64,000 nucleotides of DNA, taken from NCBI GenBank assembly GCA_008802785.1, contig VUYT01000002.1, positions 310,001 to 374,000 of the forward strand, in the 5' to 3' direction. The notes under the pieces are model-generated. The model did no database searches, was not told where the DNA came from, and was given only the letters and a program-made list of their open reading frames with translations. The stretch's first letter is position 1. The number at the start of each line of letters is the position of its first letter. Both the position numbers and the translations under genes were made by a program. Source of the DNA: Symmetrospora coprosmae. Its lineage: Eukaryota; Basidiomycota; Cystobasidiomycetes; Symmetrosporaceae. Positions 15,285-63,182 of this stretch are shown here, piece after piece.

Positions 15285-17169
15285 TCACGCAGTCTGCGCA
15301 GCACTGTGAGAGCCCCTCTCGAGAGCCAGAGTGGCGCGGGTGCTACCGGAGCTCGCTGTAGACCCGGCGGTGGATGCTGGCCGCGTCAGAGGCGTGCGGG
15401 GCCTTCCAGTCGCGTAATCGGGCGTTCCATTCATTGAGCGGACGTCTGTGCGGTCTCCGATACCGATAGTTAATCGGTAGTCGGTAGTTGAGCCGTAGTT
15501 AAAGACGAGGTCTGCGGTCATGCGACGAAAGCCAGGGTCAATCCGCCTGTAACCTGGACCAGGCTGAATGCAAACACGTACAGTGGTTCTTGATGAAGAT
15601 GTCACCGAGGATGGTGTACTGGCTCGAGCCGCCCTGAATACCCGATACGCACAGGCCATCATTCTTCCCGCTAGGCCTGAATGCCAGGTCCTCCTTTGGG
15701 ATGCCGAACCTCCTGGTGCCAATCTCGACAAAGACATCCTTGAAGGGCGACGTGTCGCACGGAACGTACCACGCGCCATCATTCACGTTGCGCTGAGCAC
15801 CCGTGATCTGCTTGTGCAGATTCTGGCAGGCGGTGTCGGACGTGTAGATGAGGGTGGTGGCCGTGTCGACGATGCACCGGCGTGCATCTGCGGCTCCCAT
15901 CAATGCGCTAAAGCCGATATTGGTGCCGTAGTAAATCTCCTTCATGTCGACGCCCCAGTAGTAGGCACTTGTGACATTCGAGTACGTGATTCCCGCCTCG
16001 CCGCCAACGACATACGTAGGGTTGATGCCGCCCCAGCGGTACTCCCCTCCACCATTTCCTGTGCCCGCAGGCTTGCTCTTGTCCTCCTTGACTAGGGCGA
16101 CGCCGACTAGGGGTCGGGCGAGCTTGCCGGCCTTGATGACGTTGCTGAGCGGCGTGATGTTGCCTTCGACGAAGCTGAGCTGGTCCGGTCCGAGGCCGAG
16201 GATGCCGTCCCAGCGACTTGCCGATACGCCCGCTTTCTTCGCCGTGATGAGCGCGAGGACCTGATTGTCCGCTGCGAGTGAGCTTGAGGAAGCCGAAGCC
16301 GGGGCGAGTGTGACGGAATCGTAGCCGAGCACGCCGCGCATCTGCGTGCCATCACCGTACGCCGTGTCGAACGGGATCGTTGTGGCCTTGTATGTCCGGG
16401 AGGCGGCCGTGTCAAATGCAGTGTGGTTGTTGAGCTGGCACGTCGTGCAGTTTTTGCTGTACATGACGGTGTCTGCCGACCCGGTGTCGAGCGCCATGGT
16501 GAGTGTTTGTGCAGGGGTCCCGAAGCTGATCTGTCCGAACCACTGCAATGTAGAGCAAGAACGAATCAGCATAGGGCGAGTATGGTTCCGTGTCTCGCGC
16601 CAGACACCCACGGCATTATCACTCTGCGAGTTGGTCACTGTCGTGGTAGGAGCCCCGCCCCATCCATCATCAACGACTCTTCCAGTGCCAAGATGCACGC
16701 CAACGTCTACGTCCACCGACAGTAGCCTGTCGACCAGTCCGCCGATGGACAGGTCAACTTTGCCGGCGGTTTTGGCCGGTCCACCGAGAAGGCCGTCCAG
16801 CCCAAGGTCCAGGTTGAGCCCGAGCAGGCGCTTCTCGCGGTGCGTGGTCGGCTTCTTCTGCGTCGATGAGGAAATAAGAGCAGCGAGGTCTAGGCCAAGA
16901 GCAATGTTGGCGACGGTGAGGTCGAGCTTGGTCCTCAGCAGAGGGTAGCTTGCTGCGTCCTTGCCCTGGCCAAACAGGCCGAACTTGAGGATCCCATCCG
17001 TCAGAAGCTGGACAGCTGTAGGGTTGTACTGTGCATTGAACTTGAGAGGGATGGCGATCTCTGTGTCCTTTACTTTAGCTGGTGTGGAAGCCTTTGCTGC
17101 TGCGCCGGAAGCGGGCAGAAGGAGAGCGGCGAGGGCGGCAGTCAGGACCTCCAACGGCAGCAGCACCAT
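15285..17169 (-). CDS. Secreted aspartyl protease (pepsin-like, A1 family)
   Basis: Pepsin-like protease. Exons: 17169-16612, 16542-15582, 15511-15285; about 581 aa. Signal peptide MVLLPLEVLTAALAALLLPASG, then a ~180-residue pro-region rich in Leu/Asp/Gly repeats (GLNLDLGLDGLLGG). Catalytic motifs: WFGQISFGTPAQTLTMALDTG (first Asp) and RRCIVDTATTLIYT (second Asp), with the flap region FDTAYGDGTQMRG. The third exon gives NHYLVFNYGST, the usual strand after the ILGD motif (YTILGDIFIKNH). The second triad is DTA rather than DTG/DSG. The C-terminal tail is Thr/Ser/Pro-rich, possibly a wall-linked or O-glycosylated stalk; no GPI signal is obvious. The first intron (16543-16611, 69 nt) has no in-frame stop. 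Confidence 0.88.
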
Positions 17170-17977
17170 GACGATGTGCTGAGCCGGGTTGAAAAGAGCG
17201 TGGTGAGCGGTGAGCGGGAAGAAAGCTAAGAACTGCCAATCAGTGCAAGACGAAGAAGCTCAAGCGCTGCTGAGCGTCCAGGAAGGTCCGCCATGGGACC
17301 CCTTTGCGAACCGAGGAAAGGAGGCGTTGTAAAGGAACCTCGACCCTCCGAGACGGAAGCGGTTCGAGCGATGCGAATACTCAGTCGGGACCGAGCCAAG
17401 AATGTCGCGTCTTTGCTTTCGAGCGACTTCTCTCGAGCTCGCACGTAGTGCGCAGGGTCCCTTCAATGTGCATCGGAGAGCGTGCTGGCGCGTCGGAACG
17501 TATCCACAGCGGCCGGCCTGGAAGATGTTCATGATCAGGCTTCTCGTTGCACGGCCGGAGCACTCGGAAGCTCCGACTCTGGACTTCCGGACATTTCTTG
17601 CCTGGTGGTCGTGTCGACCCTATGGCACCGTGTCGAAGCCATCATCGTGCAGCTGCTGCTCTGCTGCCTGCGCTGTCGAAGCTGTCTCCTCTCGCTTGCC
17701 TCCAGCCGCGGTTAGCTGTCGCAGCCGGCTTGATCAGATAGTGATCGGCCGGAGCTCAGCCGCGCCCAAGTCGCGAGAAGCGATCCCTCCGAATGAGGTC
17801 AAGCCCGTCGAGATTCACATCATTCGATGCGGATGTGCCCGCGTATCCTACATAATGGACGCATCCTCTAGTTCTCCCTCTTCGCTCCTCCTATCCTCCT
17901 CTCTTCTTCGTCTTAGCATCATTAGACTGACCCAACTCGCGTAAAGAGCTTCCCCACCCAGCTACTCAAGACCCATC
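17170..17977. other. Divergent intergenic region, aspartyl protease / alpha-beta hydrolase
   Basis: 808 bp between two divergent secreted-protein genes. One 180-codon plus-strand ORF (17402-17944) crosses it but has no domain-like features and ends in a Ser/Leu run made by a CT-rich tract just before the hydrolase start. I treat the region as promoters and 5' UTRs. The CT-rich tract (~17865-17925) is typical of fungal transcription start regions. Confidence 0.5.
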
Positions 17978-41371: not shown

Positions 41372-44300
41372 CTACAGCGCCCGCGTACCTTTCCAGACGA
41401 GGCATTCGGTGATGGCCGCCTCGAGAGCAGAAGCACGGACTGGTTTGGGGAGATACATGTCGAAGTTGAGGGCGAGGAAACGCTCCTTGTCTCCGCTCAT
41501 GCTGTTTGCCGTCAGGGCAATGACTTTTGTCCCGCGGGCTGATGATCGCGGATGTTGACGGATAGCGGCCACCGCGCTGCCAGAACCTCATCGGAAGCAA
41601 CCAGTCAGCCATGGCATCGGAGCGCCCGGATCCCTCGTTTGCAGGAGACTCACGCTGGCCCATTCATGCGCGGCATCTCAACATCCTGCAGAATCGCAAA
41701 GAGTGATCAAGGTTAGCTTGATCGGCCTGAAGATGCACAGGACCTAGATAGTTCACCATGAGTATAACGTCAAAGTCGGCCTTGTCGACCTGATCCACTG
41801 CGTGTTGGCCATCATCGGCGACGGTGACCCTTGTAAAGCCCATCTTCCGAAGCAAGGCGGCATAGACCTCCTGCAGAAGGCTGTCGACCAGAGCCACACC
41901 GCAAGTCCGGGCGTGACGCGGCACAATCAGTCAAGACACCCCCTTGCGGCCAGTGAGTGCGCATGAACGCAGTACTGCTCACGCGTTGTCTTCGGCAATC
42001 AGGATTGAGCAACGATCCCGTGCAATTTGCGCCTTTTCGCTACTTGCAACCTGATCGGGCACGGACAATCTTGGATCGGCCAGAGGAACCTTCGCGAGGG
42101 GTATCCGCACATGGACGCTAGAGCCGACTCCAAGGGCAGATTGCAACGAGACAGTCCCGCCCATGAGCTCAATCAGCTGCGTAGGCGATCGTATCAGCAC
42201 TCTTGGCATGGCCGATCACATTCAGAGGAGAGAGAAGGCGACTGACCTGCTTTGCTATCGTAAGGCCAAGCCCGGATCCTCCGTAGTGTCTTGCTGTGCT
42301 GACACTCGCTTGGTGGAATGGCTGGAAGAGTTGAGGCAGCGTCTCGCCGTCAATTCCAATTCCTGTATCAACGATTTTGCAGTCCAGCATGATGGCCTCG
42401 CCGTGATCCTCGTGGCCGACAGAGAGTGTCACACCACCAGTCGTGGTGAACTTGACGGCGTTGGACACAAAGTTGGACAAGACCTGGGCAAGGCGCAGCC
42501 GATCGCCAAGAAGCGGACCAGCGTATGCACTCGTGGCTTCTCTGTTGAAGTACAGCAGCTTTGCCTCTGCCATGCTGCCAAATATGTCCATGTCGCGCAG
42601 GAGGTCGACGAGGAGGAATGGCGTCCGCTCGATTTCCAGCTTGTTCGCTTCCATCTTGCCAATGTCGAGGACCATCGAGACGAGCTGGAGAAGGAGCTCT
42701 CCGGCCTGAAGCTGCTTGCTCACGAGGCTGCGTTGGCGCTCGCCGAGAGATGCGTCTGCCAGGAGCAGCTCGCTGATGCCGAGCATCCCGCTGATTGGGG
42801 TGCGAATCTCGTGGGATAGGCTCGAGACAAAGACCGACTTCATCCGCGACGCCTCCTTTGCCGCCGTCTCGCTCGCGAGAAGTGCCTCGCGCTCAATCTG
42901 GCTCTGCTGCAGCGCAACCTCGGCCTGCTTCATGGCCGTGACATCTGTGCACACGATGGCGATGCCGGAGAAGTCGCCGGTGCCCACGACACCGCCTGTG
43001 CCCAGTGTCGTTGCTGTGTCCGAGCCAGCCCCGCTCTGCATGTTGGCCAGGTCGTGGTCCCGCTCCGTGAGCTCGCGGAGCGGTGTCAGGCGGTACCGAA
43101 AATTGCATGCGCCCACGGTGCTCTGGAAATCGCGCTCGGTAGGCAGACCGTTTGTCCGCGCGTGCTGATCGAGCATCTCGCGCACTTGCACGATAAGCAG
43201 CGGATCGCCCCACACTGTCGAATCGAGCAGCTTGCCCGCCGTGGCGTCTCGGTCGCCCATCCCAAGGGTTGACGAGACGTGTCCGTCGAAGAGCGTGATC
43301 CGCCGTGCGGGGTCGACGACGATGAGGGCGATGGCGGCTGCGCGCAACACCGTAGAGACATAATGCCGGGCCTGGACCGCTTCCTGCCGCGCATTTATGA
43401 GGTCTTGCCCATCTGTGAGCGTAGACACAAAGCCCGTAACGCTCCCAGAGGGGTCCTTTGTTGGCCGGCCCCGCGCAATCATCCACCGGTACTGACCATT
43501 TTTGTTCTTGACGCGGTAGTTGAGGTGGATGTCCTGTCCTGTGCGAATGGAGTCGCCATACATTTCCACTGCTTGCTGAACGTCGGCAGGGTGGAAGCTG
43601 CCGGGTGCACGAGCGTTGAGTCAGCTCCCATTCTCGACCATGATGAGCATTCCAAGATCTTCAACCCACACATCCGCCCACAGTTCTGAGTTGGGCAATT
43701 CGGGATTCCAGCCTGTGAAGTCGTACCACTGGGTACTACGTGTGCGTGTGGTTCAGCTCCTGGACAGACGTCAACTCCGAAAGCTTCGACTCAACTCACT
43801 TGAGATATGTCACTACGCCATCCTTGGCACTGGTGAACAGGATCTGCGGCATCGATTCTATCGCGATCTATGCAATAGATAGGCATGCAGGAGATGCGCG
43901 TCAACCATATTGTACCGGAACAGCGAGGCGCTGATCTCGGCCGCACCTTGTAGAACTCGACAGGTACCCTCCGGCCATCGAGCGTGCTCTCGTCCACGCA
44001 TTCCTCGATGGTAGCCGGCGCTTTCACAGGTTCGGATTTCTTCCTGCTGAGCATGGGTCGTGTGAGCGGCTCGGTGGGCGAGATGTTCTCTGGAAGAATG
44101 ACGGGCGGGCGTTCAGGCGCCGTTTGTGGCGAGACGAGGAGCACGGCAAAATAGTACGATCTCTCGTTCGACGAGGCAAAGGAGGAGATGGACGCGTGCC
44201 ACCAGCGACTCGCGACGAGGTCGTCGACGAGAGTGAGGCACGATTGCACCTCTGTGGCCGGACTGGCCGAGTCGTCCCAATCCTCGGGGTCGTCGTAGCC

Positions 44301-59364: not shown

Positions 59365-60018
59365 ATGAACGATCTCGTCAAGAAGCTCGTGGCTAGAGCC
59401 AGCAAGTCAAACCTGCGGGAGCAGCAGCAGGGTGCCGCTAACTCGCCTGGCCCTTCTGGCACGGCTCCACCCCGCAACCCTTCGGGAGGGGGCCCGAGCA
59501 AGGTGTCTAGAGTTCTCGGCGAGGAGTGAGTATCTGCTTCTATGACAAGCTGGTCGACTGCGGGTGAATGCAGTGTCAACAACGCTAATTCTCGGATATC
59601 CCGCTTGACGAGTAGTGCCATCGAGCAGGTCAGGGGTCGGCGAGCAGAGAGTGAGGAGCGACCTCGCACGCCATCTCTTGAGCGTCAGCAACGGGCGTTC
59701 CGCCAGAGCCAATTCGTACCACCTCCTGCTTGGCCGCCCGTGCAGAGGGTCCCGGCACGAGGCGTGGCCCTCGAGCAAGGCCAGCTTGCTAGGATGCAAG
59801 ATCCCGTTTACGCTCTGGGTATCGATGAAGCGCGAAGGGCGCAGGAGCGTCCCACATCGTTCATCAGGCGATCCTCCCCTGCTCCGGGGCAGCAGACAAC
59901 AAACTTCAGCTACCCCATCCGCCGCCGAACGAGCGCCTCGCCGGCCCTTGCCGTTCGCCGAACGAGCGTCTCGCCGAGCCCTGCCCCCCGAACCCCGAGC
60001 CCTACCAAGCGCGGATAG
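59365..60018 (+). CDS. Tandem family copy 1: small basic disordered protein, unknown
   Basis: Not recognised. Exons 59365-59525 and 59613-60018; 188 aa. Layout shared with the two genes downstream: a short amphipathic basic start (MNDLVKKLVARASKSNLRE), a Gly/Pro linker (PRNPSGGGP), SKVSRVLGEE at the end of exon 1, then in exon 2 EQVRGRRAES, AFRQSQFVPPP, LARMQDPVYA, SPAPGQQTTNFSYPI and a C-terminal SPTKRG. Rich in Arg, Ser, Pro and Gln; no signal peptide, membrane segment or cysteine. Copy 1 has an added Arg/Thr/Ser-Pro repeat near the end (RRRTSASPALAVRRTSVSPS). Splice position and phase (phase 2, inside the codon after LGE) match those of copies 2 and 3. Confidence 0.75.
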
Positions 60019-60939
60019 GTCACTTAGCATGGCTTAGAGCACTTCCCCTTCCAATCGCCAGCCACTCTACATGTCCCATTCCTGCTACAACCCCCTCCTC
60101 TTGCCTCGATACTTGCCTGCTGCACCACATGACCGTTCCTTGCAGAGAGGATGCCACGGACATTTGGACTGACTGTCATGGAAGTGATACCCGCTGACAG
60201 TGACTGAAGCTCCGTATAACTCGGTACAACCTCAAACGACTGCAGCTGCCCGCTCGTCTTGAGCACAGGTGGACAAGCATGAGAACAAGGATCAGGACGA
60301 ATACGACGCAGGGCAGTGTAGCACAGTGCCCACAGCGACGGGTGAGCGATCGTCGACGTTCACGAGGAACGCAGCTAATCCCGTCCCCGCTCTGCAGAAC
60401 CCCATCTCGGTAGGCAGGAGTCAGACCCTGAGTCCGACATGTGTTCGGATCAGTACCGGTGCCATCGGGAGATGGTCAGGTGCTTGCGTCTCCACTATGC
60501 ACTCCCTGTCTTGGGCACCGGATGCGTCCCCACACGGTCTGCTGTCGTCGCCCTTTCATTCGGGAGAAGAGAGTCCGCATGAGTGGGCCCTCGGCGGCTC
60601 GCGCCGAGTGCTCGATCCCTTTCGTGAGTCGGAGTTCTTTGTCCGTCTGTGGGGACATCACGCAAGCGCTCATGTGCCTTGTAGAGCTGACGTGCTCAAC
60701 CTATTCTTGGCGTGCATCGCGCAGACTGGCTCGGTTGGCTGGCAACGCCTCGACAGCTCGAGGGCATCACGCTGGGGACCCTCCACCGTGCTGTGCTGGC
60801 AGCTCCCTCCTCTGAGTAGAAAGCGTTGGACTGCTCAACGATCTCTCTCTCTCTTTCCTCACTCGCATTCCACTTCCACTCCACTGCTCCTCCTCTACCC
60901 ACACCTCCCTCCACTACTACACCCCACATCAACACCGTA
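60019..60939. other. Spacer between tandem copies 1 and 2
   Basis: 921 bp. Its first part is homologous to the spacer after copy 2 (see the repeat features). A 223-codon open frame (60269-60940) has no ATG start and looks like leader sequence. A CT-rich tract precedes copy 2; no clear TATA box. Confidence 0.5.
60055..60213 (+). repeat. Duplicated spacer block, copy 1 downstream
   Basis: Homologous to 61495-61648. Shared words include GTCCCATTCC, ACATGACCGTTCCTTGCAGA, CTGACTG, CCGCTGACA and TGACTGA in the same order and spacing. Confidence 0.8.
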
Positions 60940-61455
60940 ATGAACACACTCAGGAAGAAGCTCAGCAGAAAGGATATGCAGCAGCAAAACCCCGCTGGAC
61001 CCACCCAGACTGCACCCAATAACCCTTCCGGCGGCGTAGGCAAGGCTTCCAAGGTACTTGGCGAGAAGTACGTCTCTCAGCAGACGCAGCAAAGCGATTG
61101 CGGTGCCATCAAACCGACTCCTGCTGATCTGTTTTCCACGACTCGCAGTGTGGAGGGTCAAGTTGTCCGCAGCAGTGTAACCGGAAATGCCAATTTCCGC
61201 GCGAGCCAGTTCATCCCTCCTACTCAGGGTGGCGTCGTCCAGACTCTTCCCGGACCTGGCGAGACCCTATCTGCCAGTCAGCTTGCGAGGATGAGGGCTG
61301 ACCCGAAGTACGCCGCTGCCGTCAATGCAGCTTGGGAGAGGCAGGAGCGGGGGCCAGCTCAGCCTAGGCGGTCCTCCCCTGCTGCGGGCCAGCAGACGCG
61401 AAACTTCAGCTACCCTATCCAGTCCCGAACTCAGAGCCCTGGTAAGCGCGGATAG
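60940..61455 (+). CDS. Tandem family copy 2: small basic disordered protein, unknown
   Basis: Not recognised. Exons 60940-61067 and 61149-61455; 144 aa, the shortest copy. MNTLRKKLSRKDMQQQ start, NNPSGGVGKASKVLGE at the end of exon 1, then VEGQVVRSS, NFRASQFIPP, TLPGPGETLSASQLARMRAD, PKYAAAVNAAWERQERG, RRSSPAAGQQTRNFSYPI and SPGKRG. The 81-nt intron has no stop, so the unspliced frame is also open; splicing is inferred from the identical position and phase in copies 1 and 3. Pairwise similarity to copy 1 is highest at both termini and in the QQT.NFSYPI block. Confidence 0.75.
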   Translation: MNTLRKKLSRKDMQQQNPAGPTQTAPNNPSGGVGKASKVLGEKYVSQQTQQSDCGAIKPTPADLFSTTRSVEGQVVRSSVTGNANFRASQFIPPTQGGVVQTLPGPGETLSASQLARMRADPKYAAAVNAAWERQERGPAQPRRSSPAAGQQTRNFSYPIQSRTQSPGKRG

Positions 61456-61494
61456 GCCACGCGACACTATGGAGATCACCTTAGTATCCACTCG

Positions 61495-61648
61495 CTAGCC
61501 ACTTGGCGTGTCCCATTCCTCTTCCAGCCCTCTTCTCCTGCCTCTCGATACTAGCCTGTTGCGTTACATGACCGTTCCTTGCAGAGACGATAGCGCGGAG
61601 CTTTAGACTGACTGCCATTCGAGTGGTGTCCGCTGACAATGACTGAGG
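61495..61648 (+). repeat. Duplicated spacer block, copy 2 downstream
   Basis: Homologous to 60055-60213, showing that gene plus 3' flank was duplicated as a unit. Confidence 0.8.
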
Positions 61649-62152
61649 GTCTACATGGCTCGACATCGGATTCACGAGTTGACGACAGCTTGCTCACGTA
61701 GAGTCTCAGCGGGACCGGCGATGCCATAGAAAGCGCCTTGGCGACGGAGTGAGCAATCTCCGATCTCAACAAGGGGAACACGGTCCTCTCGCATGGAGAT
61801 GGTTGTCCGACCCCACTGATCCACTCCTTTGAGGCGGCCCCTCCCTGCTCATCGGAGCTCGTCCATCCGCACTACACGTGGTCTCGGATGTCGAGCGACT
61901 CCGCTGTCGTGCAACTCGTTCGGAGAACGGTTTCCGCCTCTCGCGTTCCCACGCTCCCTTTCTCCGTATTCACTCGGTGGCAAGATGCAGCGGCTCAAAG
62001 GGCAGGGATGCGCGCAAGCGCAAGCTGGCTGATCGCACTCTGGCAGTTGGCTCGAGTGCACTGCACCGACGGTGAGGGTGTGCCACACGCAATCCAGCTG
62101 ATGCAAGAGCCTACTCTGCTAGGCATGCAGTGCAGAGAGGTCTCTGGCGGCC

Positions 62153-62160
62153 TATAAAAG
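62153..62160 (+). promoter_or_regulatory. TATA box of tandem copy 3
   Basis: TATAAAAG, 140 bp before the copy 3 ATG and followed by a CTCTCTCC-rich leader like that of copy 1. Confidence 0.7.
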
Positions 62161-62292
62161 TCCGGCAGGATGTGTCTCTCTCCTCTCTCTTTCCTCCTCA
62201 TCGAAACAAAGCGACCACTCCCTTCCTCTCTTCTCTACACCCAATCTATCCACTCACGCTCGCCGACCCAGCCCTCGTACTCAGTTATCGCC

Positions 62293-63182
62293 ATGGACCC
62301 CGTCAAGGATGCGCTCAGCAAGCTGAACCTCAAAGGCCAACGAAGCCGGGACAAACTGCAGACGGCTAGCTCTGCTACTGCTCGCAGCGGTACGCCTACG
62401 AATGCTTCTGGTGGTGGTCCTGCGAAATTGGAGCAAATATTCGGCCAACCGTAGGCCCGCATTGCATTCGTCAGGAGGTCGTTGAAGTTAGGCTAAGATC
62501 TTCGTACTACTGGTGCCCGCAGGGTAGCGCAGAGTCCCAGAATACCGCCGATCGGCAATGTGAGCAGGGGTGACCCGAGCCCAAGGACCTCTATCGGCGA
62601 TATGCGGACGCCCTCGGCTAAGGCTGCTCAACTTTTGGGCGTAGAGTGAGTCAGCAGTCTTGATCCACGTTGACAAGCGCATCTCGCGCTGAAGCAGCTT
62701 CTGTAACTTCACACACACGCAGCCCAGACGAGGTGCGAGGCAGACAAGCAGCACAAGGATTCATCCGCACGCCCTCTTCATCGCCCAGGAAGACGGGTTC
62801 AAAATTCCGCCAGAGCAAGTTCTACCCGCCTACTGCCGGCGATGCCACTTCGCGCCTTCCGGGGCGTGGTGAAACCCTAACGGACGCTGAGTTGAACAGG
62901 ATGAAGGTCGATCCTGCTTTTGCCAACAGAGTCGATGAGACCCGTAAGAGGCAAGAGGAAGCTGCCGCGAAAATGGATTTGCACACCGTCCATCCGCGAT
63001 CGTCGAGCAGCTTCAGCCAACCCAGAGCCCCGACTACTACTACTGGGCCACGACTTGCTCCCGCAGAGAGCATCAATTTCAGTCGTCCACGACCGGGAAC
63101 CCCGACAGCAGCACAGGGCGCCGGAGCCGCGGCTGCGGGCAAGACTAGCCGCTCACGCTCTCGAAGCCCCGTGAAAACTTAA
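62293..63182 (+). CDS. Tandem family copy 3: longest paralogue, with repeated first-exon motif
   Basis: Not recognised. Exons 62293-62450, 62523-62645 and 62723-63182; 246 aa, all phases agree. Exon 1 ends GGGPAKLEQIFGQP and the extra exon 2 ends TPSAKAAQLLGV; both match the single SKVSRVLGEE element of copies 1 and 2, so this motif exon appears duplicated here. Exon 3: DPDEVRGRQAAQ, SKFRQSKFYPP, LPGRGETLTDAELNRMKVDP, AFANRVDETRKRQEEAA, then SINFSRPRPG in place of TNFSYPI and a final SRSRSRSPVKT. No localisation signal is clear; the SR/SP-K tail could be nuclear (inference). Confidence 0.75.

Follow-up and report, generated by a model that had tools for sequence, protein, structure and literature searches.

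Three consecutive genes on the forward strand of Symmetrospora coprosmae contig VUYT01000002.1, here called g1, g2 and g3, form a tandem paralogous family that matched no named family in the libraries searched. Their products are predicted from composition to be disordered, and the LPG.GE block of these proteins is predicted to be a kinked helix. The genes lie in a window of 64,000 nucleotides (positions 310,001 to 374,000 of the contig, contig 22 or C22 of the assembly), which is the whole stretch of DNA analysed and part of a 20.05-Mb assembly in 77 contigs.

Tandem arrangement and homology of g1-g3

Pairwise local alignments of g1-g3 scored 242, 218 and 139, against maxima of 73, 86 and 68 among 500 shuffles per pair (z = 27.5, 20.2 and 13.5), so that all shuffles were exceeded and the three genes are homologous well beyond chance. 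When the genome was searched in six frames with g3 as query, g1 was recovered (E = 6.8e-13), as was g2 (E = 1.9e-9). All five matches of this query at E ≤ 10, and all four of the g2 query, fell inside g1-g3, and neither query found a further copy in the assembly. No extra copy was found with a five-member profile in the window and C22:366000-395700 (29.7 kb, 21.7 kb beyond the window), where the best other match had an E value of 0.079. These alignments and genome searches bear out the tandem array of three paralogues proposed by the first-pass annotation, which had been made from the sequence alone.

Reading and computationally splicing the DNA gave the three forward-strand genes at the coordinates proposed earlier (Table 1). 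All four introns run from GT to AG and all four are in phase 2, in agreement with the common intron phase that had been proposed. The proposed common exon structure applies to g1 and g2, which have two exons each, but not to g3, which has three.

Family searches and relatives

No Pfam family matched g1-g3 at E ≤ 1, and a search with five members at E ≤ 10 returned two families only, each for one member, with best E values of 1.7 and 3.4. NCBIfam and the PDB sequences likewise gave nothing at E ≤ 1. The earlier statement that the set could not be assigned to a named family therefore holds for these three libraries, none of which yielded a match to a characterised domain. A literature search found no paper with any of six motif strings of the family, and among the papers listed by further searches none dealt with such a cluster by its title or the start of its abstract.

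A profile search of proteins (7991 scored) returned four relatives at E ≤ 1, all with ENA as their source and all on contigs of 1445-3624 bp. P0001 resembles g1 (80% over 78% of the query; 81% over 158 translated residues), although its sequence is partial and includes some intron-derived residues. P0003, also partial, resembles g3 (58% over 154 aligned columns), and P0004 corresponds to a g2-like first exon (E = 0.66 in this search and 2.7e-4 in a second one). P0002 resembles g2 at 163 of 171 residues with the g2 intron read through. This intron is in frame and free of stop codons, so its retention would yield a 171-residue protein, and its read-through is identical in P0002. As judged by best matches and not by a tree, g1, g2 and g3 are each closest to a different relative, so the triplication is probably older than the split from those relatives.

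The second profile search (7995 scored) gave three proteins at E ≤ 10, none of them new, and did not return its own query member P0001; absence from the protein database is therefore weak evidence. As a control, an exon of Vps18 was searched in the same database and gave 26 matches, 25 with the Vps18 Pfam domain, including one at 99% (P0005) and 12 at 54-67%. Kin of this genome are thus present in the database, although Vps18 is longer and presumably changes more slowly than g1-g3. These results suggest that the family is clade-restricted, with a search that may miss members.

Constraint on the coding sequences

The three genes evolve as coding sequence and their proteins are under constraint. 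The ratio of nonsynonymous to synonymous differences per site (pN/pS) was 0.55, 0.62 and 0.68 for the three pairs, values that are biased downwards because protein likeness guided the alignments, and none of 2000 bootstraps reached 1 in any pair. Random pairing of codons gave means of 0.97-1.02 and minima of 0.80-0.86. The observed ratios lie below all of these minima, and the near-neutral ratio that the first-pass annotation had named, together with a lack of transcripts, as evidence against its own reading was not found. Codon positions 1, 2 and 3 of g1 and g2 agree at 0.62, 0.71 and 0.50. The Jukes-Cantor ratios of nonsynonymous to synonymous substitutions (dN/dS) were 0.36, 0.23 and 0.39, with dS saturated or nearly so in the pairs with g3.

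Protein motifs

The ordered motif set described earlier was recovered in part. FR.S.F.PP and the C-terminal SP.K are present in all three copies. The motif K..(K/R)VLGE at the first splice junction occurs in g1 and g2, but g3 has K..QIFGQ there. A look-alike at the second junction of g3, AKAAQLLG, had a score that 107 of 2000 shuffles reached and is not significant, and an exon duplication within g3 was rejected on this ground. LPG.GE.L....L.RM..DP.(Y/F)A is exact in g2 and g3, but in g1, where a residue is missing, the block is VPARGVALEQGQLARMQDPVYA, and P0003 also deviates from it. As for (T/I)NFS(Y/R)P, NFS(Y/R)P is found in all three copies and (T/I)NFS in g1 and g3, but g2 has RNFS. In an alignment of five members, F-R-x-S-x-F-x-P-P, L, R-M, A, Q-E, F-S-x-P and T are among the invariant columns.

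S-P-x-K, a cyclin-dependent kinase (CDK) consensus, lies no more than eight residues from the end in all six members compared (g1, g2, g3, P0001, P0002 and P0003); P0004 was excluded from this count as it ends before the region. By shuffling, [ST]P.[KR] is expected in the last eight residues with a frequency of 1.0-2.3% per member, the six members being related and not independent. An arginine/serine (RS) run is present at the C-termini of g3 (TSRSRSRSPVKT) and P0003 (HSRSRSRSRSPVKSK), and is absent from g1, g2 and P0001.

Predicted disorder and a predicted helix

The products of g1-g3 are basic (isoelectric point 11.3-11.9) and hydrophilic, with a grand average of hydropathy (GRAVY) of -0.85 to -0.93. 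Pro, Ser, Ala and Arg are abundant in them, and order-promoting residues make up 14-17%. In a charge-hydropathy comparison, all five proteins placed (g1-g3, P0001 and P0003) fell on the disordered side. Based on composition, the g1-g3 proteins are predicted to be disordered.

AlphaFold2 was run on the last exons of g3 and g2, both with the same five-sequence set. Each model contained one confident helix pair, of 9 then 23 residues in g3 or 15 in g2, and in both models the D of the DP step stands between the two helices. In the g3 model, block means were 87, 89 and 85 over residues 51-80, compared with a whole-model mean of 62.7 and a predicted template modelling score of 0.30; the whole-model mean for g2 was 61.8, and both models were of low confidence outside the helix pair. 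The LPG.GE block is therefore predicted to form a kinked helix. The earlier proposal of selection on short linear motifs in disordered proteins agrees with the composition and with pN/pS below 1, but one of the blocks it named is this predicted helix, and the persistence of the C-terminal motifs has a second component described below.

DNA flanking the genes

The last codons of g1 and g2 and the DNA that follows them are alike at 74% over 226 columns, of which about 190 are non-coding (blastn, E = 2e-35). In a genome search this 3' flank was found only after g1 and g2 (78% over about 160 bp), and 147 of its 191 positions are identical. At conserved residues, g1 and g2 share 31 of 55 third positions over the first three coding segments versus 18 of 23 over the two C-terminal segments, as counts without a significance test. 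Because silent sites and 3' non-coding DNA are alike, the persistence of the C-terminal motifs between g1 and g2 is partly a matter of the DNA, which qualifies the earlier proposal for this pair. The likeness could be explained by gene conversion, by a partial duplication of younger date or recent shared origin, or by a functional 3' DNA or RNA element.

The non-coding DNA upstream of g2 was compared with P0002 and P0004 as translated sequence and not at the DNA level. P0002 retains 117 of 120 translated residues there, versus 163 of 171 in the gene. P0004 retains 28 of 30 in a first frame and, after a switch of frame that points to a small insertion or deletion within well-kept DNA, 51 of 60; at the coding start it retains 33 of 50. 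In P0004, the DNA upstream of g2 thus appears better kept than the protein N-terminus. Within this region, 39 of 39 translated residues at 60644-60760 are identical to P0004.

An RNA element in the flanks was not supported: no Rfam family was found, the two matches at E ≤ 1 being far below gathering scores and elsewhere, and the flanks showed no folding advantage over shuffles (z = 0.39 and 0.70). TATAAA precedes g1 and g3 at nearly the same distance, and g2 is without it at the aligned place.

Genomic neighbourhood

Upstream of g1-g3, on the opposite strand, lies Vps18/Pep3 (Pfam E = 1.5e-33). Both P0002 and P0030, the latter corresponding to the start region of Vps18 in another frame, come from a contig of 3624 bp; if they share one contig, which their equal lengths suggest, the order Vps18-g2 would be kept there. 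No g1-like protein was listed from a 3624-bp contig. Downstream, a protein kinase gene is followed by a cullin (both by Pfam). The kinase is presumed to be a single gene in two pieces. Its N-lobe piece had 12 PDB matches, every one an SR-protein kinase (SRPK; best E = 2e-9). The match of the other piece is limited to a 60-residue stretch; GSK3 and PRP4 kinases come first, and the 60 listed of its 179 matches include no SRPK.

Table 1. Features of the window and its immediate downstream neighbour (window positions unless prefixed)
Feature	Position	Strand	Description	Basis
g1	59365-60018	+	201 amino acids; exons 59365-59525, 59574-60018; intron 59526-59573 (48 nucleotides, phase 2)	Sequence reading, splicing; relative P0001
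g2	60940-61455	+	144 amino acids; exons 60940-61067, 61149-61455; intron 61068-61148 (81 nucleotides, phase 2)	Splicing; relative P0002
g3	62293-63182	+	246 amino acids; exons 62293-62450, 62523-62645, 62723-63182; RS tract at C-terminus	Splicing; relative P0003
g3 introns	62451-62522, 62646-62722	+	Both phase 2	
Predicted kinked helix of g3	62883-62981	+	Residues 54-62 and 64-86 of last exon	AlphaFold2
Last g1 codons and 3' flank	59987-60207	+	Like g2	blastn
Last g2 codons and 3' flank	61424-61646	+	Like g1	blastn
Non-coding DNA upstream of g2	60470-60829	+	Whole in P0002; 60555-60823 in P0004; one genome match	
TATAAA	59224-59229	+	141 nucleotides before g1 start codon	Direct reading
TATAAA	62153-62158	+	140 nucleotides before g3 start codon	Direct reading
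Protein kinase gene	L014:8398-9900 and L015:1194-1889	-	Just past window end; downstream neighbour, convergent with g3	Pfam
Eukaryotic aspartyl protease	15538-17259	-	573-residue frame	
Histidine kinase piece	42169-43620	-	PAS, HisKA, HATPase	

Possible functions of the family

We tentatively favour a reading in which g1-g3, as one small tandem family, encode basic, disordered proteins that stay inside the cell and act as phosphorylation-regulated adaptors or scaffolds, although the chance that it is right is well short of even. The kinked helix around L.RM..DP.YA would probably dock on a partner, preceded by the FR.S.F.PP patch, and a proline-directed kinase of the CDK or MAPK type could phosphorylate the C-terminal S-P-x-K. 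Such an adaptor or scaffold role would be regulated by phosphorylation and at the promoter, and the copies may have come to differ in how long their linkers are, how many S/T-P and RS sites they carry and which type of promoter they have. In a more specific form, which we consider doubtful, the family would belong with phosphorylation-switched disordered adaptors, the promoter (60470-60829) and 3' flanks would be more constrained than the proteins, the precise timing or amount of expression would be the conserved trait, the protein would need only its helix and C-terminal kinase site, and the whole would be clade-specific.

Several observations weigh against the adaptor or scaffold reading. 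The codon scores of g1-g3 (0.49-0.53) resemble those of six intergenic frames (0.47-0.52), so codon usage lends no support to strong expression. They are also lower than those of five of eight neighbouring stretches (0.55-0.66); two of the other three stretches are misframed, as they contain 4 and 12 stop codons, and the gene used as the yardstick resembles mitochondrial EF-G and not a highly expressed gene. The helix was predicted from five related sequences, of which two are partial, and the helix sequence is not strictly kept because P0003 has lost several residues of the block.

Rather less probable than the adaptor or scaffold reading is that g1-g3 are stress protectants of the hydrophilin or LEA type, which would buffer water loss and whose copies would raise the dose. 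TATA boxes are linked to inducible genes, and those before g1 and g3 fit this proposal, as does the disordered composition, but the specific motifs kept in g1-g3 would be needless for a bulk protectant and no LEA family is among the Pfam matches. With the hydrophilicity index equated with minus GRAVY, g1-g3 reach 0.93, 0.91 and 0.85, under the hydrophilin limit of >1.0 given in PMC11277543, although their glycine contents of 6.5, 10.4 and 8.5% exceed the limit of 6%. In P0001, a partial sequence with some residues from an intron, both values lie above the limits (glycine 7.6%, minus GRAVY 1.03), but P0003, also partial, has a minus GRAVY of 1.07 and fails on glycine (5.8%). Compared with hydrophilins as defined in PMC11277543, g1-g3 are thus alike in disorder, hydrophilicity and glycine above 6%, and differ in a hydrophilicity below 1.0, in their ordered motifs and in the helix predicted for them. 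It is improbable that the genes encode nuclear RS-type proteins of RNA processing phosphorylated by an SR-protein kinase. The C-terminal RS runs of g3 and P0003 recall SR proteins, and the kinase gene with an SRPK-like N-lobe adjoins g3; however, an RS run is missing from g1 and g2, no RNA-binding domain, RNA-recognition domains included, was found in g1-g3 with Pfam, the other piece of the presumed single kinase gene matches GSK3 and PRP4 kinases best, and the adjacency of the kinase gene to g3 may be chance.

We give about the same low probability to the proposal that the DNA is what matters, with conserved regulatory or RNA elements around weakly constrained genes. The better retention in P0004 upstream of g2 than at the coding start would fit, as would the identity of the g1/g2 3' flank compared with third positions in the first three coding segments. 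On the other side stand the Rfam and folding results and the protein constraint indicated by pN/pS; gene conversion accounts for the 3' likeness equally, and the coding part of P0002 is nearly as kept as its upstream part. Secreted effectors are very unlikely. Small, diverged, tandem genes without known domains would suit them, but by hydropathy the first 30 residues of g1-g3 contain no hydrophobic stretch (best 9-residue mean Kyte-Doolittle values of 0.81, -0.26 and 0.30 for g1, g2 and g3), hence no sign of a secretion signal, and g1 and g2 start with lysine/arginine-rich sequence.

Fungal genomes encode many short disordered proteins that lack a family name, and a tandem, apparently clade-restricted small disordered family is of an ordinary kind; this one matched none in the libraries searched. 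Septal pore plugging (SPP) genes are lineage-specific fungal genes, specific to Pezizomycotina (PMC10023807). By description and not by sequence, g1-g3 resemble them in general kind only, as apparently clade-restricted fungal proteins. The three diverged copies, the ordered motifs and the predicted helix together provide a profile for finding further members and name the residues to test. Should DNA from further species bear out the well-kept flanks, that pattern would be rarer than tandem duplication itself.

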